Source of the DNA: a virus
IMG/VR virus record: IMGVR_UViG_3300004463_000192
Span: 1 to 23,573 of that record
DNA length: 23,573 nucleotides
Reading direction: 5' to 3' (one strand)
Shown: positions 1,882 through 23,573 of the stretch, one piece after another
Layout: each line of letters opens with the position of its first letter
Position numbering within the stretch: position 1 is the first letter of the stretch
Notes under the pieces: generated by a model
Told to the model about the DNA's origin: nothing
The model's database searches: none
Seen by the model: the letters and a program-made list of their open reading frames with translations, nothing else
Position numbers and translations under genes: made by a program

Positions 1882-2750
1882 TGGCACAGCACCTCGAGCA
1901 GATTCTAGTCCGCGGGCTTTCCGGCCTGATCGAACGGAGCTCGCGCGGGGATAACCCGGATGGTCCGGTCACGGTGACAGGCTACGCCTCGACCGTGGAC
2001 GAGGATATAGACGGATACGTTATCGCTCCTGAGGCTTACCGTAAGGGCCTCGCGACGTATATGCGTAACCCGATCCTGCTCTTTAACCATGATCGGGATA
2101 AGCCGATTGGGGTAGTCAGGCGGGCGGAGATTGATAGCCGCGGGTTACTCATAGATGCCGAATTCGATATGCAAGATAGCTTCGCCGCGGCTCGAGCGAG
2201 CCAAGCCGAGCGCGGGATCTTGCGGGCCTTTTCGGTGGGTTTTCGTCCCACGGCAGAACCCAAGTTCAAGGACGACAAGCTTTATTTTAACGAAGTGCAG
2301 CTTATGGAAATTAGCCTTGTGTCCGTGCCGGCGAACCCGCACGCCTTGATCGGTGCTGAGGCGGGGGAGCTCGTGGCGCGGCAGGCTGAGGCACACGAGA
2401 ACGCACTCAAGGAGATTGCCGCGGCTGAGGCCAAGAGCCGGGAAGCGGTGGCGTTGTTTTTTAAGGAGCAGCTTAAGGGTGCGGAGCGGCGGGTGGCCGA
2501 GCTTTTCGAGGCCCGCGGGATCACGATTGCTAACTTGGTCGATAAGTCATTGGCTAGGCTCGCCGATCCGGTCGAGGATGACGAGATAACGCGCGCGCTA
2601 AGGGCCATCGTTCAGGGCGGCGGGCAGCAGGGGGGCGGAAACCCTTTACCGCCCGATCCTTCTAACCCGCCGCTTCCTACTCCCGCCGACGTGGTGCACG
2701 AGGACGATTACATCTTGGGCGCCTTAACGCAGGTGGTGACGGCCGAATGA
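1881..2750 (+). CDS. HK97-type prohead (capsid maturation) protease
   Basis: The start is taken at the ATG overlapping the preceding TAA, preceded by GGGAGGCGG, giving 289 residues. The N-terminal 160 residues follow the HK97 prohead protease (gp4-like) pattern: VTVTGYASTVD, RNPILLFNHD with the expected catalytic His70, ILRAFSVGF with the nucleophile Ser118, and VQLMEISLVSVPANPHA with Glu143. These enzymes cut the scaffold or delta region of the capsid protein inside the procapsid and then digest themselves. Residues 165-245 are Ala/Glu/Lys-rich and helical, possibly a scaffold-like tail, and a Gly/Pro linker (about 249-275) leads to an acidic C-terminus. The gene overlaps the following one by four bases (ATGA). 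The major capsid gene lies 0.9 kb downstream. Confidence 0.9.
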   Translation: MAQHLEQILVRGLSGLIERSSRGDNPDGPVTVTGYASTVDEDIDGYVIAPEAYRKGLATYMRNPILLFNHDRDKPIGVVRRAEIDSRGLLIDAEFDMQDSFAAARASQAERGILRAFSVGFRPTAEPKFKDDKLYFNEVQLMEISLVSVPANPHALIGAEAGELVARQAEAHENALKEIAAAEAKSREAVALFFKEQLKGAERRVAELFEARGITIANLVDKSLARLADPVEDDEITRALRAIVQGGGQQGGGNPLPPDPSNPPLPTPADVVHEDDYILGALTQVVTAE

Positions 2751-3337
2751 TTACGCTTGGGCACATGCGCAATATGCACGAGCGTGAAATGGCGCTCGTG
2801 GTGGGAAACTCGCCTTGGCGTACGGGCTTTCCGATCCATATATGGAATGGCCCGCTGATCGTCTGTAACCACGCATTCCTTGAGCTGCCACGCCGGGGCT
2901 ACGTCTGCGTATCGGATGTAGAAACGATGGAGCAGGTATTTCAAGAGCCGGAAGCGGACCAGCATACGTTTATCACTCCGCGGAATCTCGCCAAGGCGAA
3001 CCTGCGCGCCCTGATTGACGGCCGGAATTTGAAGCATGTAGCGGTCGAGGACGCATGGAAAACGGAGCCTACGTCGGGCGCTATGGCCCTGGGGCTTGCC
3101 GGGTGGCTTGGGTGCAGTTCGCTCTTAGCTATCGGGTTCTCGTGCGATACGACGCACGTTAAGGCGAAGGGCGGGAAGGTGGCACCAGGGGCCAATGCAC
3201 GCGGCATTGAAGCGGTGCAGCAGGGGATGGACGAGTTTCGGCGGCTCTCGCCCGGGGGGTATGCGGCGATTTCGGTAGATCCTGACTGGTTTATTCAGGC
3301 TATAGAGGAGAATCAAGCGCAATGGCTCAAACAATAA
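2747..3337 (+). CDS. DUF115 / sialyltransferase-fold-like protein in the head module
   Basis: The 196-residue product starts in an ATGA overlap with the protease. It has features of the DUF115/MptE-like group and the related sialyltransferase-like fold: a nucleotide-loop-like VVGNSP (residues 18-23), then PLIVCNHAFLELPRRGYVCVSD (36-57), then SGAMALGLAGWLG (110-122) followed by LLAIGFSCD (126-134), which matches the usual SG..A...A...G......GFD pattern. Family members are glycosyltransferase-like or bind phosphorylated substrates. Whether this one is active is unknown, as the usual GNGPS motif reads GNSPW. Similar proteins are found in phage head operons without a clear role. A modification of capsid or fibre surface would be one idea. 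The stop overlaps the next gene by 16 bases. Confidence 0.45.
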   Translation: MITLGHMRNMHEREMALVVGNSPWRTGFPIHIWNGPLIVCNHAFLELPRRGYVCVSDVETMEQVFQEPEADQHTFITPRNLAKANLRALIDGRNLKHVAVEDAWKTEPTSGAMALGLAGWLGCSSLLAIGFSCDTTHVKAKGGKVAPGANARGIEAVQQGMDEFRRLSPGGYAAISVDPDWFIQAIEENQAQWLKQ

Positions 3338-3558
3338 CCTTAGACGAAGGACACCGGCCGGCAACGGCACAGATTGTCCAGGCGATGGTAGCGGTGGGGA
3401 TTATTCCCGGCGATATGGTGTCCGGTACGGCGCTCTTGACGTTTGACCACGGAATGATTAGCACGGTGGTGCTTACGAGTCCCAAAATGATTTCCGTCGA
3501 TACGGCGGCTGGACGTGATTACACGGCCGCTGACGGTGTTATCGGGGCTGTGGTCTAA
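3322..3558 (+). CDS. Small unknown protein upstream of the capsid gene
   Basis: This 78-residue product begins at an ATG 16 bases inside the end of the preceding gene, so the pair is probably coupled. The sequence has a short polar N-terminus, then a stretch of beta-prone and small residues (AQIVQAMVAVGIIPGDMVSG, TALLTFDHGMISTVVLTSP). There is no signal peptide, and the hydrophobic stretches are too broken to be clear membrane spans. I do not recognise the family. Small genes at this place in HK97-type head clusters are often decoration, head-stabilising or assembly proteins, but nothing here proves that. Confidence 0.6.
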   Translation: MAQTITLDEGHRPATAQIVQAMVAVGIIPGDMVSGTALLTFDHGMISTVVLTSPKMISVDTAAGRDYTAADGVIGAVV

Positions 3559-3644
3559 CCCTATTAGATGTGACGGGGCAGCACGCATGAATCTAAAGCG
3601 GCTCGGCATAAACCGCCTCGGGCTCGGCAAAGACGAGGGGCTTA

Positions 3645-5207
3645 ATGTCCGCAGATGTTGGAACCCAGGACGCCTTGGCTCGTGCCGTTGGCGAGATCAA
3701 GGGATATGTTGACAGCAAGCTAGGAGAATTCGGCGTTAGGGCCGACGAGCTTGCCAAAAATTATGAAAAGCGATCGGCGGAGACTGACGACCGTGTAAGT
3801 AAGGCGCTCGCCGACGCGGTATCGAAAGATGAAGCCAAGAAGCTCTTGGATGACGTGCTCAAGGAAGCGGCACGCATTAAGGGTGAGACGCCGAACCTTG
3901 TAGGCGATTTCGATATGGCGCGTATCCGTCGTGGTGCTACGGATGCGGCGACTCCTGGTGAGGCGAAAGCCATTTACGAGGAGTTCCTTACATCGAAGCC
4001 GGCTAACGAGACGGTGGCGCGGTTCCACGAGCTTTCGACCAAGCTTACGCTCCTGCGAACGATTATGCGCCGGTATGACCCGGACTGGGAGCCTTCGCGC
4101 GCGCAGAATAACGTGGCGCGTGCCTGGTTCCGTGAGTATCAGGCAATCCAAAAGAGCACGTTTACCGATTCGTTCCTCGAGCGTGCTTTCGATACGCAGT
4201 CTACGAATGACGGCCCCGACTGGATCCCGTCGTTTATGTCGGCTGACCTGATTCGGTATATCGAGGTCCGGGGCGGACTGATCCCGCTCCTCCGTTCGGT
4301 GGCGATGCCTGGCAAGGTCTACGATCTGCCTTTCACTTCGACTGCCGGTATTGGGCATGTGTTTAGTGAGCGTACGGCGTCACCGTCTGCCGCTTACAAC
4401 TATACGACTCGCGAGCTCTATACGAACGGCTCCGGGCCGATTGATAACAACCGCCTGGACGCGATCACGATTCGTGCGTTTATCGTCGCCTCGCAGCAGG
4501 TTATCGAGGATTCAATTATCCCGATGATCGACTTTATGGCGACGGATACGGCGGATGCGATCCGGCGTGCGATCGAGGATGCGATTATCAACGGTGACGG
4601 TACGACTACCCACTTTGATACGCTGCCCTCGATTTCCTACACCCCGGACGGTGCGGGCGGTGTGCATAACCGTACCGCATGGGACGGCTTCCGACTGAAT
4701 ATCAATACGAACGGTGCTAACGCGCGTGTGGCGTTGGCGGCGACTTCTTACGGCTCGCTGGCGCCTTTCGCCAACGTGCTCGCGAAGATGGGCCGTTACG
4801 CGGCGGAAGGCCCGGGCAATCTCGCGTGGGTGGCGTCGCCGCTTGCTTACTTCAAGCTCCTGGCCCTGCCGGAGTTCGCAACCGTCGAGAAGATCGGCGC
4901 GCGCGCCACGGTGGTCACGGGTCAAGTCGGCTCGATTCTCGGCAGCCCGCTCGTGCTGTCCGAGTTCGTGCGGCAGGACTTGGATGCTAACGGCGTGGCT
5001 TCTACCACGACCAACAACACTACGGAAATTATCGTTTTCCATCGGCCTAGCTGGTGGATCGGTAACTACCGTGGCATTTCGACCGAGCCGGAGCGGTTGC
5101 CCGGATGGGACCAGAACGTGATTTGGGCCCGGTGGCGGGGTGACGTTATCAAGCTCTGGGCGGTGGGACAGATTTCCGAGGCGGCACTCGTGGATATTCG
5201 GCCGTAG
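3645..5207 (+). CDS. HK97-fold major capsid protein
   Basis: The 520-residue product starts at an ATG preceded by GACGAGGGG. Residues 1-75 are helical and charged (DSKLGEFGVRADELAKNYEK and onward), as expected for a scaffold-like delta region removed by the prohead protease. The rest follows the HK97 capsid plan: DWIPSFMSADLIRYIEVRG (N-arm/E-loop entry), the segment LITIRAF-like AITIRAFIVASQQVIEDS, the spine helix DTADAIRRAIEDAIINGDGT (the A-I-x-N-G-D-G motif is typical), and the A-domain end SSILGSPLVLSEF-like GSILGSPLVLSEF with a C-terminal RWRGDVIKLWAVGQISEAAL. It forms the icosahedral shell. A 13-bp hairpin begins 26 bases after the stop, consistent with high expression of this gene relative to those downstream. 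The length includes the N-terminal extension. Confidence 0.93.
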   Translation: MSADVGTQDALARAVGEIKGYVDSKLGEFGVRADELAKNYEKRSAETDDRVSKALADAVSKDEAKKLLDDVLKEAARIKGETPNLVGDFDMARIRRGATDAATPGEAKAIYEEFLTSKPANETVARFHELSTKLTLLRTIMRRYDPDWEPSRAQNNVARAWFREYQAIQKSTFTDSFLERAFDTQSTNDGPDWIPSFMSADLIRYIEVRGGLIPLLRSVAMPGKVYDLPFTSTAGIGHVFSERTASPSAAYNYTTRELYTNGSGPIDNNRLDAITIRAFIVASQQVIEDSIIPMIDFMATDTADAIRRAIEDAIINGDGTTTHFDTLPSISYTPDGAGGVHNRTAWDGFRLNINTNGANARVALAATSYGSLAPFANVLAKMGRYAAEGPGNLAWVASPLAYFKLLALPEFATVEKIGARATVVTGQVGSILGSPLVLSEFVRQDLDANGVASTTTNNTTEIIVFHRPSWWIGNYRGISTEPERLPGWDQNVIWARWRGDVIKLWAVGQISEAALVDIRP

Positions 5208-5232
5208 CACGACGGCTGAGTAAGTCGGCGAA

Positions 5233-5278
5233 GGGCCGGCGGTGGTTAGAAGTCACGATCTAGCGCCACCGCCGGCCC
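5233..5278 (+). terminator. Perfect 13-bp GC hairpin after the capsid gene
   Basis: GGGCCGGCGGTGG (5233-5245) is followed after 20 bases by its exact reverse complement CCACCGCCGGCCC (5266-5278). It lies in the gap between capsid stop and the next start (5305). There is no U-tract after the stem (the sequence continues CAAGCC), so it is not a textbook intrinsic terminator. It may be a partial terminator, an mRNA 3'-end stabiliser or a processing structure limiting expression beyond the capsid gene. Confidence 0.6.
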
Positions 5279-5304
5279 CAAGCCGGCAGAACGGAAGGCA
5301 GAGG

Positions 5305-5544
5305 ATGTTGGTCAAGTTCTTAAGGGCGGTCTACTGCCCTAGCTATAACGGTCCTGGTGATGTGCGGGAAATGGACGATATGCGCGCTATCAAGCTTATG
5401 GCCGAGTTCCCGGGCGCGCTCGAGCGGTACGACCCGCAAGCGGAATTGCGCGCCAAGGATGAATCCGCACAGTTGCCGCTCGTGGCGCCACGACCTGCGA
5501 CCCAGGCCCCGCCGCGTATGGCGTCGAATCTTAGGCGGGGATAA
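5305..5544 (+). CDS. Small unknown head-module protein
   Basis: The start chosen is the ATG at 5305, preceded by GGAAGGCAGAGG, giving 79 residues (MLVKFLRAVYCPSYNGPGDV onward). An in-frame GTG at 5242 would lie inside the hairpin and add a Pro/Arg-rich leader, so it is unlikely. The N-terminal 30 residues resemble a compact beta strand plus helix (MLVKFLRAVYC, MDDMRAIKLMAEF), the rest is charged and ends in a Pro/Arg-rich tail. I do not recognise a family. Many HK97-type phages carry a short protein between capsid and connector with a similar N-terminal strand, so a head-completion or capsid-vertex role is possible, not shown. Confidence 0.6.
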   Translation: MLVKFLRAVYCPSYNGPGDVREMDDMRAIKLMAEFPGALERYDPQAELRAKDESAQLPLVAPRPATQAPPRMASNLRRG

Positions 5545-5553
5545 GGCGACGTA

Positions 5554-6168
5554 ATGGCTGACATTGTGACCCTGAGCGAGCTTAAGGCGAAGGCAAGGAT
5601 TACGAGCTCCACCAATGATACGGAGCTCACGCAGATCATTGCCGAAGTCGAATCCAAGTTCCAGGGGGAGATTGGGCAACCCCTAATCACCACCGCCTAT
5701 ACCGAAGTCCGTACGGGTGACGGCGGCTCCATAATGCAGCTTTACCGCTATCCCATTATTGCCCTGAGCTCGATTGCGATTGAGAACGAGGCGAACGTAC
5801 CGCTGGTATCGGATCAGATTCGGTATGCGACGGGCCCGGGGTCGGACGGGATTCTCTACCTTCTCCGCCGCTACTTTACCGCCTGGTATCCGCGGAATAT
5901 TACGGTGACGTATGTTGCCGGCTATGCGAGCCAATCGGCGATCAAGGCGGCGATGCCGGATGCGTGGGAACTGGTGCTGGATGCCGCTTCGCAATACTGG
6001 TTCGATATGAATAGCCAGCAAAAGGGCGTGCAGTCGCAAGCGTACATGGATGGCGCGATCAGCTTCTTTGGTCCGCAATTCAAAGATAAGAAGTTTCAGG
6101 ATCAATGGTCGCAAGTCGTGAGCAAGTACCGGCGTCGGCTGAATGAGGCGGTGCCGGATGTGTATTAG
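5554..6168 (+). CDS. Head-tail connector protein (HK97 gp6-like)
   Basis: The 204-residue product opens with VTLSELKAKARITSSTNDTELTQIIAEVES, the classic start of gp6-like head-tail connectors: a short strand, the LKAHLRI-type helix, then the D-x-x-L-x-x-I-x-x-A helix. The middle has the usual SIAIENEANVPLV and YPRNITVTYVAGYA segments, and DAWELVLDAASQYWFDMNS matches the C-terminal helix that packs the ring. These proteins form a ring under the portal and receive the tail. The position, after the capsid gene and before a gp10-like protein, fits. The C-terminal 60 residues are longer than in the shortest family members. The stop lies within a 13-base direct repeat (6150-6187). Confidence 0.85.
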   Translation: MADIVTLSELKAKARITSSTNDTELTQIIAEVESKFQGEIGQPLITTAYTEVRTGDGGSIMQLYRYPIIALSSIAIENEANVPLVSDQIRYATGPGSDGILYLLRRYFTAWYPRNITVTYVAGYASQSAIKAAMPDAWELVLDAASQYWFDMNSQQKGVQSQAYMDGAISFFGPQFKDKKFQDQWSQVVSKYRRRLNEAVPDVY

Positions 6169-6187
6169 TTTCGGGGTGCCGGATGTG
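6150..6187 (+). repeat. Direct repeat GGTGCCGGATGTG x2 spanning the connector stop
   Basis: GGTGCCGGATGTG occurs at 6150-6162 and 6175-6187, a 25-base period. The first copy is the last codons of the connector gene (VPDV), the second is just beyond its stop. It looks like a small local duplication. Confidence 0.75.
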
Positions 6188-6195
6188 CTGAGAAC

Positions 6196-6205
6196 TGCCC
6201 TGTCC
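6196..6205 (-). promoter_or_regulatory. Inverted copy of the start-associated motif
   Basis: TGCCCTGTCC is the exact reverse complement of GGACAGGGCA, the variant seen at 18210 and 21939. It sits in the 83-base gap before the gp10-like gene, 46 bases upstream of its start, but facing the other way. No minus-strand gene starts nearby, so its function is doubtful; it may be a relic. Confidence 0.4.
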
Positions 6206-6251
6206 CCGGTGCGGAAGGCTCCCCGATTCATTTTCGGAAAGGTGGTGCGGT

Positions 6252-8772: not shown

Positions 8773-9846
8773 ATGGCAACCCCGCAGGGTGCAGTATCCA
8801 AACTATTTTTTCGGCCGGAGACAACGTACGGTACGGACTCGATCGGTGCGGGTAGCGCGTCGATTGGATTCCTTAACTACTTTGACCGGGTATCGGTGAA
8901 GTCGGCTAAGACTCCGCTCGACTTCGGCGAAATCTCGGGGCTATCTACGGACTTCTCCGCCTTCGAGGAGGGCGGTATTGACGTGGGGCTCGATATTGAA
9001 TTCGCCATGCGGTATTACGGCGCCCATATTGCCCTAATCGGGCTCGGCATGGGGACGATGGTTACGACCGGCACCATTCCGGTCATTACCCATGCGGCGA
9101 CCTTGCAGGACGCTCTATTCTCGTCAACGTTTAAGTATCAGGTACCCGTGACCAATAACTCGACTTTTAACGAGAATATTCTCACGGGATGCTCCGTACA
9201 GCGAATGACGCTATCGCATCGTGCAGGCGACGTTATGCGGTGCCGGCTCGAAATGCTGGCGAGCGGGCTTACCTATAACTCGGGTTCGATTGCGACTCCC
9301 CCGTCCGCGGCGGGGCGGACGCCTACCGACCCGCTTATCTCGTGGTCGCACAAGGAGAACCTTGCGACTTCAACGGCCGTTATCCGCTCTGGCTTCTCGC
9401 TCGTGGAAATCAATATCCGGTCATGGGAAGTGACGCTAGACAACAAGCTCGAACCTAACTTCCTGATTCAGACGGGCCGATCGGGCGGGCAGCCGCAACG
9501 GTCGGATTTCCGCGAAGTGCGTATGCGGCTCGAGATCGAGCAGAACGCCGGTTGGCGTGAATTCTTGACGGCGTACGGGGATAGCCCCACGGGTACTACG
9601 TCTGACTTTGGCGTCCGGCTTGACTATCAGAGCCCCACGTCGGCGAACGAGGCTTTCCTCGTTCGCGTGTCTAACTGCCGTACGCTTGACGTGCAGCGCA
9701 ACACGGAGACGGCCGGAAAGATGTACCAGCAAGTGGAAATGCGAGGCCACTTCAAGTCGGGTAGCACGAACTTTATCCCGGCACCGCTTGAAGTCACGAT
9801 GAATAACACTAAGGACGTGCCTTACGACGAGGCCCCGCTAGGCTAG
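8773..9846 (+). CDS. Major tail tube protein
   Basis: The 357-residue product starts MATPQGAVSKLFFRPETTYG, like phage tail tube proteins that open with a strand plus an 'ETTYG' turn. The body alternates beta strands typical of the tube fold: GGIDVGLDIEFAMRYYG, STFKYQVPV, GCSVQRMTLSHRAGDVMRCRLEMLASG, WSHKENLAT, FSLVEINIRSWEVTLDNKLEPNF and FREVRMRLEIE. The 'S.N.E..........R.......' segments in the second half match the common LV.S..I.IDN.LE pattern of tube proteins. It would form the hexameric rings of the tail. Position before the chaperone pair and tape measure agrees. It is longer than minimal tube proteins (about 150-250), so a surface-exposed extra domain is possible. Confidence 0.85.
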   Translation: MATPQGAVSKLFFRPETTYGTDSIGAGSASIGFLNYFDRVSVKSAKTPLDFGEISGLSTDFSAFEEGGIDVGLDIEFAMRYYGAHIALIGLGMGTMVTTGTIPVITHAATLQDALFSSTFKYQVPVTNNSTFNENILTGCSVQRMTLSHRAGDVMRCRLEMLASGLTYNSGSIATPPSAAGRTPTDPLISWSHKENLATSTAVIRSGFSLVEINIRSWEVTLDNKLEPNFLIQTGRSGGQPQRSDFREVRMRLEIEQNAGWREFLTAYGDSPTGTTSDFGVRLDYQSPTSANEAFLVRVSNCRTLDVQRNTETAGKMYQQVEMRGHFKSGSTNFIPAPLEVTMNNTKDVPYDEAPLG

Positions 9847-9877: not shown

Positions 9878-10327
9878 ATGGAAACACGCAAGGTTGACCT
9901 GGGTGGCGGATGGCAAGCAACCATCCGCCGCCCTGGGATCTACTGGGTAACGGTGATTGCGGATAAGCACAAGGCGATTGCCCGTCAGTATGGCGAAATG
10001 CCGGCCGAGTCCTTGGAAATCAAGGAGCAGGGTAAGGAGGAGCCGGCATCCGACTTGCCCGATAAGATCACGCTACACCCGGAACATTACCGATTCTGGG
10101 AGGATGAATTGCTCCCGGCGTCCTTGGTCGAAATGCACAAAGACGGGCAATTAGTCCAAACGCCCGCCCTTGCGGACTTGGGACTGGCACGGTTCGGTAA
10201 GCTCTTGGATGCGGTAATGACGCTGATTAATGAGGCCGAGGAGCATCCCAAAAGTGCGGATGATCCGGGCACTCGACAGCGCAACCGCGTTGCAGGTCAT
10301 GCAGCTCGCGAGAAGGCTAGGGCGTGA
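9878..10327 (+). CDS. Tail assembly chaperone (gpG-like, upstream frame)
   Basis: The 149-residue product follows a good ribosome binding site (GAGGAGG, 11 bases before ATG). It opens with KVDLGGGWQATIRRPGIYWVTVIAD, a beta N-terminus common in these chaperones, followed by a charged helical part (PASLVEMHKD, LGLARFGKLLDAVMTLINEAEE). The terminal residues past about 124 (KSADDPGTRQRNRVAGHAAREKARA) look like readthrough without homology signature, as expected when most of the biology lies in a frameshifted product. A second frame overlaps it by 98 bases, the arrangement seen for lambda gpG/gpGT. The chaperone binds the tape measure before tube polymerisation. Confidence 0.7.
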   Translation: METRKVDLGGGWQATIRRPGIYWVTVIADKHKAIARQYGEMPAESLEIKEQGKEEPASDLPDKITLHPEHYRFWEDELLPASLVEMHKDGQLVQTPALADLGLARFGKLLDAVMTLINEAEEHPKSADDPGTRQRNRVAGHAAREKARA

Positions 10328-10508
10328 CCCGCTCGAGATCCTCGAGGACGACCCGGCACGGGTATACGCACAAATAACGCTTATGTCCCGTGCTCACGAT
10401 GAATGGGCCCGGCAGGTTAACGAGATCGTAAGCGAAATGGCAAAGGAAGGACAGGGCGGGATGTGCTCGGCACACCTTCTATTGCCGGTGCTTGAGAATC
10501 TTTGGTAG
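10230..10508 (+). CDS. Tail assembly chaperone (gpT-like, downstream frame, reached by frameshift)
   Basis: The frame is open from 10227 to TAG 10506-10508 and its own ATGs (10230, 10260) have no recognisable ribosome binding site, so it is most likely translated as an extension of the upstream chaperone. It reads MQLARRLGRDPLEILEDDPARVYAQITLMSRAHDEWAR, which resembles the usual C-terminal module of tail chaperones (L.R..G.....L......E.......L...A). It lies in the +1 frame relative to 9878. At 10247-10253 the sequence CCC AAA A could allow a +1 slip at CCC (or -2), which would give a 209-residue fusion: 124 residues, then 85 beginning KVRMIRALDS. The direction of slip is opposite to the usual -1. 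Confidence 0.65.
   Translation: MRPRSIPKVRMIRALDSATALQVMQLARRLGRDPLEILEDDPARVYAQITLMSRAHDEWARQVNEIVSEMAKEGQGGMCSAHLLLPVLENLW
10247..10253 (+). other. Candidate programmed frameshift site CCCAAAA
   Basis: This heptamer is at the point where both chaperone frames are open (10227-10327). The upstream frame reads CCC AAA AGT; a +1 shift at CCC reads the downstream frame from 10251 (AAA GTG CGG). CCC is a classical +1-prone codon. Other slip points within the overlap cannot be excluded. Confidence 0.45.
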
Positions 10509-10531: not shown

Positions 10532-13500
10532 TTGCCGGATCTTGAGATTAGGGTAAGTGCCCTATCCGATCAGGCGGTAAGGAATCTCGGATCGGTGGAG
10601 CGGCAGTTAGGCCGCACCACGAACGAGGTTAAGAAGCTTGACCAGGCGACGGCCACGGCGGGCAAGTCCGTTAACGGGTTTGCTCAGATTGGGGCTAAGG
10701 GCTTTGCCGATCTTGGTAACTCCGCGCAGAAGTCGCTAGCCGGCGTCAAGGAACTGTCTAAAAATATCCAAGGGCTAGTACAGGCGACTGCCGGGTTATT
10801 CATTATCCAACAGTCGATTCAGTTCCTACGCCAGTTCTCGGATGCTGTGGTCTCCACGGTTTCGGCTGTGGTCAAGCTCGGGGACCAGCTAGACGCCGTA
10901 TCCGCCCGCACCGGCGTTAGTGTCCAAACGCTCTCCGCTCTCAAGTTCGCCGCCGAGCAAACAGATACTAGTTTCGAGACGCTAGCGACTGGCGTACGCC
11001 GGTTGCAGGTGGCGTTGGTCGAAGCGGCTTCCAAGTCGGACAGCGAAGCCGCTAAGGCATTCGCCAAGATCGGCGTTAGCGCCACAAACTCCGCCGGTCA
11101 GATACGGGACGTGGCGGATGCGCTCCCGTCGATTGCCGAAGGTATCCGCAATCTAGGATCGGACGCCGAGCAGACGGCAGCCGCGGTGGCGCTCTTTGGC
11201 CGGTCGGGGCAAGAGCTCGTACCGTTTTTGCAGACGGGTGCGGCCGGCATGGCCGAAATGACGAACCAGGCGCAACGGCTTGGTGCGGTGCTCTCGCCCG
11301 AAGTGGCCCGGGCGGCATCCGATCTAGATAACTCGCTTAAGCAATTGAATACGGCGCTCGAGGCGATGAAGCGGGAGATTATCGCACCGCTTCTTGGGCC
11401 TTTGAATCAGTTGGCACAGAGCTTTATCACGCTCTCCGTTGCGTCCCGTACGCTTGGCGAATCGACTCCCGGGGAGGCGTTCCTAAGTGCCTTCACCCGC
11501 ACGCTGAGCATATTCCCGCCTTTCCGTGATGCGTTAAACCTGATCCAGCTCGGGTACAACAAAATCACAGAGGAGGCGGATAAGGCTGCGCAAGCGATGC
11601 AGCGGGCGGCGAATGCCGCGGCGGGCTCGAGCAACATTGGCGCCCTGCGATTGCAGGAGCAGGCGGGTCAGTCCCGCACGACCGAGACGATTAACGTCCG
11701 GGCGCCGCTTCCCACGACGGGCGGTACCGCCCCGGGGCTTACGGCACAGCAACTATTGGCGCTCGAGAACGCCATCCGGTCGAGTGTCGGGGTAGCGCAG
11801 ATCGGGACGGGGCAGCGGCAGATCCCGATCAATATTGACGACTCAGGACTTAGGGCGCAGGAGGAAGCTTGGCGCCGGGTCATGGGGTTGCAAAAGGATG
11901 CCGCTACCGCCGTCGAGGATACAAATAAGGCGGTCGAGCGGTTGGGGCCGATTCTCCGCGGGGTGCATGGGGTCTTTGATGATCTTGGCGACGTGGCCCA
12001 AGCTACCCAATCGCGGATTTTGGCAGTCATTTCTGCCTTTGGGCAGCTCGCCACGTCCTTAGTCGAGCTCGTGCGGAATATCGGAAACGCGAGTGCAGGG
12101 GCGGGGAGTGGTGGCGGTGGCGGGCTCGGCGGCTTCCTTGGCGATCTATTCGGCGGGCTGACGGGCCTGGGTTCGACGGTCGAGAACGCGACGGCTACGG
12201 GTGTCCAGGCGGGGATTGATAACTCGGTTGGCGTCCGGGTGCAGACGGCTACCTTCCCGGCTCTACGGGTGGAGACGCCTGCCGCTATCCCGGTCACGGT
12301 GCCGCGTATCCAGGTCGAGCCGATTCCCCCGGTTCAGGTGCAGGTGCCGCGGGTAACGGTAGACGTGCCGCGTACGGTGCTCGTTGCGCCGATCCAGGTA
12401 CAGACTCCCCGGCCGATCCCGATTGAAGTTCCGACGATTCAGGTAGAGCCGATCCCGCCGGTGACGGTGCAAGTCCCGCGGGTGGTGGCGGACGTGCCCC
12501 GGACTATCGACGTGCCGCCGGTCAGGGTGGACGCGCCACGGTCTATCCCGCTGGAAGTGCCCCGCATCCAGGTCGAGCCTATCCCGCCCGTCCAGGTCCA
12601 GGTTCCACGGGTAGGCGTGGACGTGCCCCGAACGATCGAAGTTTCGGCGCCCACAGTGCAGGTCAATGCGCCCCGGTCGATTCCGGTAGACGCGCCCCGG
12701 ATCGAAGTCGAGCCCGTGGTATTGCCCCGCCTGGCCGTAGACGTGCCGCGGCTAGCCGTGGAAGCCCCCGCGATAGCCCTTAGCGTTCCTAGGCTGACCG
12801 TAGAGGCGCCCGAAATCAGTGTCCCTGACCTGGCCCTTACCGCCCCCGATCTACGCCTTGAGGCGCCCGACCTGACGCTACAGGCGCCACCGCTCGAGCT
12901 TGAGGCCCCGGACTTACGGCTACAGGCGCCGAACCTGCAATTACAGGCACCGGACCTGAACGTCCAGGTGCCGGACTTGCGGGTGAGTGCCCCTGACTTG
13001 CGGCTCGAGGCGCCCGATCTCCGGCTGGATGCGCCCGACCTGCGGCTTGAAGCCCCGGACCTGCGCATACCGCCGGTATCGGTCACGGTGCCGACGATCC
13101 CGGTAGACGCGCCACGCTCAATCCGGGTGGACGTGCCGGAATTGAAGGCGCCGACGATCCCGCCGCTCAGGGTCCAGGCTACCCCGCTCCGGGTGAACGC
13201 TCCACGGTCGATACCGCTGGATGTGCCGGCACTCAGGGTCACGGCTCCTGACCTGGCTGTGAGTATGCCGGACTTGACGCTTACCGCCCCCGACTTGGCA
13301 CTCACCGCCCCGGACTTGCAGCTTAGGGCTCCTGACTTGGAGCTCAAGGCGCCTAAGAATCTGGCCCTTACCGCCCCTGATTTGGAATTAAAGGCGCCGG
13401 ACGTGAACGTCTCGATGCCGGATTTTGAAGCGGGCACGGCGATTATTAACCGCGCGTCTAACAATATCCTGCGTGCCGGCAATCTGTTTGCGGCGTCAGC

Positions 13501-14422
13501 CCGAAGGATCGAAAGCCAACGGCTAGCCCCAAGCGGGAGGCGGTTGGTTGACAACCCGGACGGGACCGTATCGTCAGAGCGAACCGTTACGGTTACATCG
13601 GACGAGATCAATAGAGGCCGCCCTACAAATATTCCGACAATGTTCGGAGGCGTAGAGTTAGGCGTCGAGGATGCGATACGCAGGATCATTGCCGCTGGTG
13701 GCCGCGATCCAGAAACCGGCCGGCAGCTCGAGGCGTTCAATTCGATTGAGGAAGCGGTCAAGGCTGCGCAAGAGCGTTCGGACAATATCGGAAAGTCCCT
13801 AGACAGGTTTTCCGGCAAGGCTGATTTTTCGGACGTTCGGAGCGGAGCATCTAGCACCGCGGAAAAGCTCCCATCGCTGGCTGGCCGTCTAGCGCGCATC
13901 GGTGCCGGGCTTCTTGGCGCTATCCCCGCCCTGGCAACGTTCGGCGGGATCGTGACCAATCTCCTATCCCGGGCGAACGACGTAGCCCGGGAGCGGGTGG
14001 CGGCATTCCGTAACGACTTCCAGAGCGAGCGCGCAGCCGGCGGCGGGCCCAATCTCGCATCCGCTCTCCGGCTCCAACAGCAACGCGGGTTTATCGAGCG
14101 TGTGCTGACTCCCGGTAGCGGGCCTGCCGGGATGTTCTTTGCCCCGGCGTCGGCGGGGATCACCGCCCCGAACGTGACGAGCTTCCCGCGCGATCTACCG
14201 TTCAATGTCAATGCTCCGGGGGGCCCGCAATTGGACCTGCCGCGGTTCAATCTCGGCCGGTTGAACTTCCCCCGCCCTAACCGCATTGACTTGCCTTCCC
14301 CGCGTACCGAGATCCACGTCAATACGCAGATGATGGATACCCGCGGCGGTCAAGAATACTTCTCGTCCCAAGAGTTCCGTAACGCTATGGCCTTCGCTCA
14401 GGACGTACGGGGAGGCCGGTAG
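10532..14422 (+). CDS. Tape measure protein with a long Pro-rich beta-type repeat block
   Basis: The 1296-residue product starts at a TTG (LEIRVSALSDQAVRNLGSVERQ, the usual tape measure opening). Residues 1-390 are helical and carry the phage tape measure core: an amphipathic segment AGLFIIQQSIQFLRQF, LGDQLDAVSARTGVSVQTLSALKFAAEQTDTSFETL, a further L..A...LG...S block, and EAMKREIIAPLLGPLN. A Gly-rich stretch (about 525-550) precedes residues 570-968, three 43-45-residue units and then two runs of LxLxAPD heptads. The C-terminus (about 975-1296) returns to helical, with one strongly hydrophobic segment (ARIGAGLLGAIPALATFGGIVTNLL). Tape measures set tail length and help DNA passage. The repeat block would alter length per residue if extended. 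The reading frame is unbroken through the repeats. Confidence 0.92.
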   Translation: MPDLEIRVSALSDQAVRNLGSVERQLGRTTNEVKKLDQATATAGKSVNGFAQIGAKGFADLGNSAQKSLAGVKELSKNIQGLVQATAGLFIIQQSIQFLRQFSDAVVSTVSAVVKLGDQLDAVSARTGVSVQTLSALKFAAEQTDTSFETLATGVRRLQVALVEAASKSDSEAAKAFAKIGVSATNSAGQIRDVADALPSIAEGIRNLGSDAEQTAAAVALFGRSGQELVPFLQTGAAGMAEMTNQAQRLGAVLSPEVARAASDLDNSLKQLNTALEAMKREIIAPLLGPLNQLAQSFITLSVASRTLGESTPGEAFLSAFTRTLSIFPPFRDALNLIQLGYNKITEEADKAAQAMQRAANAAAGSSNIGALRLQEQAGQSRTTETINVRAPLPTTGGTAPGLTAQQLLALENAIRSSVGVAQIGTGQRQIPINIDDSGLRAQEEAWRRVMGLQKDAATAVEDTNKAVERLGPILRGVHGVFDDLGDVAQATQSRILAVISAFGQLATSLVELVRNIGNASAGAGSGGGGGLGGFLGDLFGGLTGLGSTVENATATGVQAGIDNSVGVRVQTATFPALRVETPAAIPVTVPRIQVEPIPPVQVQVPRVTVDVPRTVLVAPIQVQTPRPIPIEVPTIQVEPIPPVTVQVPRVVADVPRTIDVPPVRVDAPRSIPLEVPRIQVEPIPPVQVQVPRVGVDVPRTIEVSAPTVQVNAPRSIPVDAPRIEVEPVVLPRLAVDVPRLAVEAPAIALSVPRLTVEAPEISVPDLALTAPDLRLEAPDLTLQAPPLELEAPDLRLQAPNLQLQAPDLNVQVPDLRVSAPDLRLEAPDLRLDAPDLRLEAPDLRIPPVSVTVPTIPVDAPRSIRVDVPELKAPTIPPLRVQATPLRVNAPRSIPLDVPALRVTAPDLAVSMPDLTLTAPDLALTAPDLQLRAPDLELKAPKNLALTAPDLELKAPDVNVSMPDFEAGTAIINRASNNILRAGNLFAASARRIESQRLAPSGRRLVDNPDGTVSSERTVTVTSDEINRGRPTNIPTMFGGVELGVEDAIRRIIAAGGRDPETGRQLEAFNSIEEAVKAAQERSDNIGKSLDRFSGKADFSDVRSGASSTAEKLPSLAGRLARIGAGLLGAIPALATFGGIVTNLLSRANDVARERVAAFRNDFQSERAAGGGPNLASALRLQQQRGFIERVLTPGSGPAGMFFAPASAGITAPNVTSFPRDLPFNVNAPGGPQLDLPRFNLGRLNFPRPNRIDLPSPRTEIHVNTQMMDTRGGQEYFSSQEFRNAMAFAQDVRGGR
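12305..12697 (+). repeat. Three tandem 43/43/45-residue repeats in the tape measure
   Basis: Units begin at 12305, 12434 and 12563 with R/T-IQVEPIPPV and contain QVQVPRV, DVPRT and APRSIP-type segments in the same order (129, 129 and 135 bases). Residues are about 592-722. A fourth, degraded start (RIEVEP) lies at 12698. Confidence 0.85.
12830..13060 (+). repeat. Eleven consecutive LxLxAPD heptads in the tape measure
   Basis: Residues 767-843 are an unbroken run of 7-residue units of consensus L-x-L-x-A-P-D, such as LRLEAPD, LTLQAPP, LQLQAPD and LRLDAPD. Identical residues are written with different codons in neighbouring units, so the repeat is kept at protein level. Confidence 0.9.
13232..13423 (+). 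repeat. Second run of nine LxLxAPD-type heptads, one residue out of register
   Basis: Residues 901-964 are nine heptads (LRVTAPD, LAVSMPD, LTLTAPD and so on) with one extra Asn (943) between the sixth and seventh. A non-heptad spacer rich in PRSI.LDVP connects this run to the first. Confidence 0.85.
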
Positions 14423-22382: not shown

Positions 22383-23573
22383 ATGGCGCTCACTCAGTCT
22401 CATTACCGCTTCGGCATTAACGAGCTCGCCGAAAGTACCCACGGCTGGCACGCCGGACAGGACACGCCTATACAAATGCTAGTAGGAACGACGTTCCTGC
22501 TACGCATTTGTTTGCAGGCGAACGCTACCGGGCTCAATAACGTAGATTGCGAATACCAGGTCCGTAAGAACGGTGGCAGCTACCAGAACATCACCACCAC
22601 CTCGTCCATTGTTAAGGCGGTGGCTGCCACCCCACTTACCAATGGGGGGGACTGCACGCAGCGGCTAGGCGGCACGGGCACTTTCGTTGCCAATAACGAC
22701 GGGCAGACGACGGACGGCACGAGCGGCGGTAATAACAATGACATAACCAGCAACGGCAATTCCGAGTGTGAGTGTGGGCTACAGATTGTCGCCGCCGACG
22801 TGGTTAAGGGTGACATATTAGAGTTTAGGCTCACCCGTGACGGCGGCTCGTTGATTGACACCTACTCGCAGACGCCGACGATTGAAGTCCTAGAGTCCTT
22901 TAGCCTGGTGGCGTCGGGCGGGTCCTACACTTTCACGGGCTCGACGGCAACTCCTAACGTCACCATGCCCGGGGCTGCCGGTTCGTACTCGTTTACCGGT
23001 GCTAGCGCAACACTTAGTAAGTCAATAATTTTCCCGGCGGGTGCCGGCTCCTACACCTTTACCGGGGCGGCGGCGACGGTAAAGGTCTCCCGTTATGTGT
23101 TTGGTAACAACTCCGTTGTTTTCAATAGTTTCGCCGCGGCTACTTTCCGCATCACGATCCCGGCGGATGTTGGCGCCTACACCTTTACGGGCAGCACGGC
23201 AGGGCTCACCAGGGCACCGCTCGCTATTACGGCTGCCGCTGGCTCGTACTCCTTTACTGGCGCTACCGCCACTTTCAGTATCACATTACCCGCGGCTAGC
23301 GGCTCCTACACCTTTACCGGATCTACGGCTACTTTCGGTCTCACGCTACCAGCCGCCAGCGGTTCGTATGCGTTCACAGGTAGCACGGCTAATTTCAGTA
23401 TCACATTCCCGGCCGGGGCCGGCACCTACGCCTTTACGGGTAGTAGCGCGACACTGACCAAGACGGGCGGCGCTATCACCATGCCCGCCGATGCCGGGGC
23501 CTATACGTTCACCGGCTCGGCGGCGGGCCTGACGCGCGCACCACTTGCGATCGTGGCCAATACCACGGCCTAT
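22383..23573 (+). CDS. Repeat-rich tail fibre protein (partial, runs off the window)
   Basis: The frame from the ATG at 22383 is open to the last base: 397 codons, no stop. Residues 1-176 form a globular N-terminus (SHYRFGINELAESTHGWHAGQDTPIQ, VDCEYQVRKNGGSYQNI) that resembles fibre attachment parts. A Gly/Asn/Asp/Thr-rich segment lies at about residues 105-125. From residue 178 it consists of tandem 20-25-residue units with core AGSYTFTG-S-TA-x-L/F, nine complete and one cut off. One unit carries an extra segment (VSRYVFGNNSVVFNSF). Related repeats occur in phage fibres and surface proteins and probably fold as beta structures. The gene likely continues beyond the window. Confidence 0.75.
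   Translation, partial: MALTQSHYRFGINELAESTHGWHAGQDTPIQMLVGTTFLLRICLQANATGLNNVDCEYQVRKNGGSYQNITTTSSIVKAVAATPLTNGGDCTQRLGGTGTFVANNDGQTTDGTSGGNNNDITSNGNSECECGLQIVAADVVKGDILEFRLTRDGGSLIDTYSQTPTIEVLESFSLVASGGSYTFTGSTATPNVTMPGAAGSYSFTGASATLSKSIIFPAGAGSYTFTGAAATVKVSRYVFGNNSVVFNSFAAATFRITIPADVGAYTFTGSTAGLTRAPLAITAAAGSYSFTGATATFSITLPAASGSYTFTGSTATFGLTLPAASGSYAFTGSTANFSITFPAGAGTYAFTGSSATLTKTGGAITMPADAGAYTFTGSAAGLTRAPLAIVANTTAY
22914..23573 (+). repeat. Tandem YxFTG repeats of the tail fibre
   Basis: Nine complete units and a partial one carry G-S/A/T-Y-x-F-T-G followed by S/A-x-A-x-L and a variable linker. Two units at 23160-23235 and 23485-23560 share an identical GLTRAPLAI segment, and synonymous codons vary between units. 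Confidence 0.85.

Follow-up and report, generated by a model that had tools for sequence, protein, structure and literature searches.

Phage tail length tracks the length of the tape measure protein at about 0.15 nm per residue, a relation explained by the protein being a helix. How a tape measure should be read when a long stretch of it departs from the helix is the question raised by IMGVR_UViG_3300004463_000192, an IMG/VR virus record from an uncultured phage (23,573 bases, all of which form the window analysed here). A first-pass annotation had placed in its tape measure gene, at 12241–13440, a Pro-rich block of repeats that it took to be non-helical; these coordinates hold, and correspond to tape measure residues 570–970.

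Results

The ORF carrying the block (10532–14422, + strand, 1296 aa, TTG start) has PHROGs and weak Pfam support. Residues 16–363 matched several PHROGs tail length tape measure families with E values down to 2e-24 (phrog_2276, the best named, 2.3e-24; phrog_8462, 2.4e-20; phrog_9483, 5e-20), while the Pfam PhageMin_Tail match (E 1.6e-4) fell short of the family cut-off. By homology of this N-terminal domain the product is a tape measure protein, as had been proposed. PHROGs, 80 IMG/VR relatives and helical periodicity marked out the conserved domain at residues 25–363 (10604–11620, + strand); the C-terminal region, residues 971–1296 (13442–14419, + strand), had no family match.

The location of the gene agrees with this assignment. 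It follows a tail tube gene (8773–9846; Pfam Phage_tube_2, E 3.5e-11) and two small overlapping ORFs (9878–10327 and 10230–10508) that occupy the chaperone position between the two genes. The relative frame of the small ORFs requires a +1 or −2 shift, rather than the usual −1, and they may therefore be separate genes. Family searches also identified a prohead protease (1830–2750), an HK97-type capsid protein (3645–5207) and a head-tail connector (5554–6168), but no tail family match in the large genes 3′ of the tape measure gene. As no sheath gene was recognised in the 23,573 bases, the tail is likely to be non-contractile. Elsewhere in the record, the ORF of a 478-aa right-handed beta-helix protein (445–1881; Pfam Beta_helix, E 1.7e-10) lies immediately 5′ of the prohead protease ORF and overlaps it, which is not where such a protein would be expected, and an open-ended protein at 22383–23573 contains repeats of approximately 20 residues of the type GSYTFTGATATFSITLPAA, with a tandem repeat at 23241–23415.

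The whole block spans residues 566–970 (12227–13441, + strand, as for all of its parts) and has 74 Pro in 405 residues (18%), approximately 45% hydrophobic residues, 2 Phe and no Trp. Three units of 43, 43 and 45 residues (590–632, 12299–12427; 633–675, 12428–12556; 676–720, 12557–12691), any two of which are identical at 25–30/43 residues without gaps, precede heptad run 1 (764–848, 12821–13075; consensus (A/V)PDLxLx), a spacer (13076–13216) with two degenerate copies of a unit motif, PRSIRVDVP and PRSIPLDVP (the second reaching 13228), and heptad run 2 (898–968, 13223–13435). Unit lengths and the two runs are as first annotated. The description ‘Pro every seventh position’ applies inside the runs: run 1 has 12 Pro (residues 765, 772 ... 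842) with all 11 intervals of 7, and run 2 has Pro at 899–963 spaced by 7 except for one 8-residue step. It does not extend to the block as a whole, where 29/73 consecutive Pro spacings are 7.

Residue autocorrelation peaked at lags 7 (0.34), 14 (0.26) and 43 (0.26), and units and runs share a common heptad, P-x-h-x-h-x-(A/V). Counting from each Pro that has a second Pro seven residues later, position +1 is mostly D/R, +2 is L/V, +4 is V/L, +5 is mostly E, Q, D or T, and +6 is A/V. The 43-residue units consist largely of this same heptad (about 6×7+1 residues; for example, PPVQVQV and PRVTVDV); their own motif, PR(S/P)I(P/R)xx(V/A)P, reappears between the heptad runs at residues 861 and 891, giving the layout U-U-U-H-u-u-H. 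Because heptads lie inside the units and the unit motif lies between the runs, we read the block as a single repeat system rather than a pair.

This pattern is neither chance nor recent slippage: the DNA repeats have decayed and the protein pattern has stayed. There were 37 Pro-Pro pairs at distance 7, compared with a mean of 13.1 and a maximum of 24 in 5000 composition-preserving shuffles, and a strict 5-heptad DNA pattern occurred seven times in the record, compared with 0 in 100 shuffles. Between units, second codon positions agreed at 74–86% and third positions at 40–49%. Identical heptad residues used identical codons in 36% of comparisons, against the 33% that the codon usage of the gene predicts, bearing out the observation that codons vary among identical heptads. 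With agreement barely above the usage expectation, the heptad pattern fits one held at the protein level, or else old repeats; the further claim of selection on the protein is compatible with the codon data, as is an old origin of the repeats. An antisense ORF at 12439–14322 was taken to be a shadow of the repeats.

The block is beta-strand in character, not helical. Its hydrophobic moment at the strand angle was 1.29, about 7 SD above shuffled sequence (0.86, SD 0.06), and at the helical angle it was lower than shuffled (0.71 versus 0.87), in agreement with the initial view of the block as non-helical. Residues 1–380 (1.24 versus 0.82 shuffled, at 100 degrees) and 381–565 (1.15 versus about 0.8, helical angle) behaved as helix, and only in the block did beta periodicity exceed helical, the three other regions of the protein showing the reverse. 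Mean hydropathy was 0.518 against a charge-hydropathy boundary of 0.426, which places the block on the folded side. AF2, run without an alignment on the whole block (421 residues), returned strands and no helix, so that helix throughout, the outcome named beforehand as counting against a non-helical block, was not predicted; the model was poor (mean pLDDT 44), with low values for the 43-residue units (about 31–45). A 111-residue construct (residues 747–857) gave one strand of ~5 residues per heptad (pLDDT 77.7, pTM 0.61), and this model resembled the tapirin C-terminal domain (6n2b_A, Z 8.9, rmsd 2.5 over 105) and bactofilin (2n3d, Z 7.5, rmsd 2.7 over 91), although a Z under 8 may reflect merely a common arrangement. 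Foldseek found no match with E below 3 for the 111-residue model and no significant match for the poor full-block model. AF2 is known to fold repeats wrongly into confident beta-solenoids (PMC11795689), and for this reason the case for beta rather than helix was rested on sequence periodicity and the exact fold was left aside.

Database searches with the block itself gave no Pfam match above curated cut-offs; weak matches to Sarcoglycan_1, DUF2125 and YdbH-like families, all below cut-off, were set aside as compositional. The likeness to AHNAK/periaxin repeats suggested in the first-pass annotation is a resemblance in pattern, on which this Pfam result does not bear directly. A phmmer search of the PDB found no solved-structure relative, its matches likewise being taken as compositional, the best of them (E 0.01) falling on a DLR-repeat stretch in a fucosyltransferase.

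The block was also sought in related tape measures. None of the 80 IMG/VR relatives, gathered by profile and ~30–40% identical in the N-terminal domain, contained Pro-heptads: they align over that domain, with marginal matches to the block (best E 0.0016), and their highest Pro count per 60 residues was 12 (median 5), compared with 16 in this protein. The block was also absent from five phage-genome relatives that were read through (phiKM1, Shpa, S-LBS1, IPK and an Oscillospirales phage), and neither the 80 nor these five included a relative with a different number of repeats, leaving the elastic or length-tuning role first proposed as conjecture. Homologues of the same tail length without the block had been put forward as evidence against its proposed role; all 80 relatives lack it, but the median length of their ORFs is 670 aa, far below the 1296 aa of this one. 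Close relatives were found neither by single-protein IMG/VR scans (tape measure, 950-aa downstream protein, capsid protein) nor by a tape measure scan of genome contigs.

The suggested search of phage proteins with the heptad consensus, carried out as pattern scans, returned no recognised tape measure among the matches listed, in IMG/VR or in 84,980 genomes, bearing in mind that exact patterns miss diverged blocks and that most matches were judged by reading the ORF rather than by family search. In IMG/VR, APDL repeated three times gave 0 matches, and a general 5-heptad pattern gave at least 120 stretches, comprising portal tails, other virion proteins and simple repeats. An A/V-P 5-heptad pattern (20 matches) and the 43-unit core pattern (29 matches) were never found in a tape measure, nor was a variant heptad pattern in genome contigs, where all 22 matches were short repeat ORFs. 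As far as these scans reach, the block appears so far confined to one lineage.

The nearest analogue is in portal proteins, which made up 15 of the 53 heptad ORFs listed. These comprise three groups confirmed by PHROGs (the 12 ORFs related to L107, together with L042 and L061) and L067, which was portal-like by reading, without a PHROG match. These tails (L107, L034, L010, L045, L042, L061 and relatives) have 5–6 PxVxVxA heptads followed by a charged tail, for example KRDexGRI. They share with the block the heptad P-x-V-x-V-x-A in a phage virion protein, but belong to a head protein and have only 5–6 heptads, near the very C-terminus and followed by the (K/R)xDxxGRI tail. Pro-heptad tails also occur in other virion-like proteins (L073, L098, L112, L121), those scanned having no family match. 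In L086, a 1251-aa protein (2475–6230) with hydrophobic stretches has six Pro-heptads in its N-terminal part; its ORF lies next to genes for a portal protein and a baseplate hub, had no PHROG match below E 0.04, and could conceivably encode a tape measure. Judging from these sequences, the block and the heptads elsewhere are as likely to have converged on a simple pattern of amphipathic strand as to be related.

Discussion

Tandem repeats within a tape measure are not new. Those of TP901-1 and p2 are 11/18-residue aromatic repeats, of a kind seen in roughly 5% of the tape measures surveyed (PMC5099701), but they sit in largely helical proteins and are marked by Trp/Phe, whereas the block has Pro-heptads, beta periodicity, periods of 7 and 43, and almost no aromatics. 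Nor is beta structure: the gene transfer agent (RcGTA) tape measure, a trimer, passes from a 113-residue helix into strands and loops that occupy 83 residues (PMC7296036), a beta-strand-rich part that is shorter than the block and is not described as Pro-heptads. No tape measure with comparable Pro-rich or beta repeats turned up in our literature searches, and the block is a genuine, apparently unreported variant within an otherwise ordinary kind of protein.

The explanation that we favour, tentatively and at a little under even chance, is that the block forms a rod or spacer of beta structure within the tip-side (C-terminal) half of the protein. Each heptad P-x-h-x-h-x-(A/V) would form one short strand with alternating hydrophobics, an Ala-Pro or Val-Pro pair would make the corner between strands, and the strands would pack by their hydrophobic faces, either inside one chain or among tape measure copies in the tube. 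In solved siphophages, the tube holds a tape measure trimer whose C-terminal end is at the tip, and in JBD30 the C-terminus of the trimer is in the baseplate core (PMC11445458). The block would add to the tube-filling segment of the ruler and, given its proximity to the C-terminus, would exit the tail early in ejection. How the block folds in the virion, how it packs as an oligomer, what it adds to tail length and what becomes of it at ejection are all what we infer.

Such a rod could take two forms. Three chains might wind together as a trimeric beta fibre, each contributing one heptad per layer, as suggested by the trimeric state of tape measures (PMC11445458, PMC7296036) and by the alternating hydrophobics and Pro/Gly turns that also define the triple beta-spiral, the trimeric rod of adenovirus fibre and reovirus sigma1. 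The spiral has a different register, with a 15-residue consensus, hydrophobics at c, e, g, k and m and one Pro/Gly, at j (PMC3150272), whereas the block has period 7 and hydrophobics at Pro+2 and Pro+4, and we consider this form unlikely. A single-chain triangular beta-solenoid, perhaps with three heptads (21 residues) per turn, seems more doubtful still: the 111-residue model does resemble beta-solenoids, but against this stand the failure of Foldseek to match it and the solenoid bias of AF2, three such rods abreast would barely fit a 4 nm lumen (derived from 40 Å, PMC11445458), and a block folded in this way would shrink to about 9 nm.

Alternatively, the block may be an unfolded, extended (polyproline-like) tether within the tube that, after ejection, serves as a long flexible connector joining the C-terminal domain to the remainder of the protein during passage of the envelope. 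The Pro content and the low pLDDT of the 43-residue units are as such a tether would have them, and JBD30 offers a parallel in tape measure residues 930–1021, predicted to be unstructured, near the C-terminal part and able to span the baseplate channel (PMC11445458). Strict hydrophobic alternation, a hydrophobic content that is unusual for disorder, and a position on the folded side of the charge-hydropathy boundary make this rather improbable, perhaps one chance in a few. It is also conceivable that the repeats expanded neutrally, or nearly so, with no role of their own, any filler of the tube being sufficient: infection by TP901-1 is little affected when many of its tape measure repeats are removed, or when one is exchanged for alanines (PMC5099701). 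Randomised codons alongside heptads kept over about 400 residues suggest a long-lasting constraint on the pattern, and we give this explanation as little weight as the solenoid.

The plain expectation is that the block would lengthen the tail by an amount set by its rise per residue. Tape measure deletions shorten tails proportionally (PMC5099701), and this extends to TM4, where losing a 114-residue enzyme-like motif from the tape measure cost about 20 nm of tail, or about 0.17 nm for each residue (PMC1796659). By arithmetic, the predicted tail would be about 194 nm were all 1296 residues helix, about 134 nm with the block not counted, about 143 nm with the block as a solenoid and about 263 nm with the block as single extended strands. 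It is possible, although on balance we doubt it, that about a third of this ruler is a beta-strand rod to which 0.15 nm per residue does not apply, so that shape and residue number together set tail length. A 400-residue non-helical block is in this sense a natural experiment on the ruler rule, setting residue number against shape: for specialists a curious and useful test of that rule, rather than a startling one.
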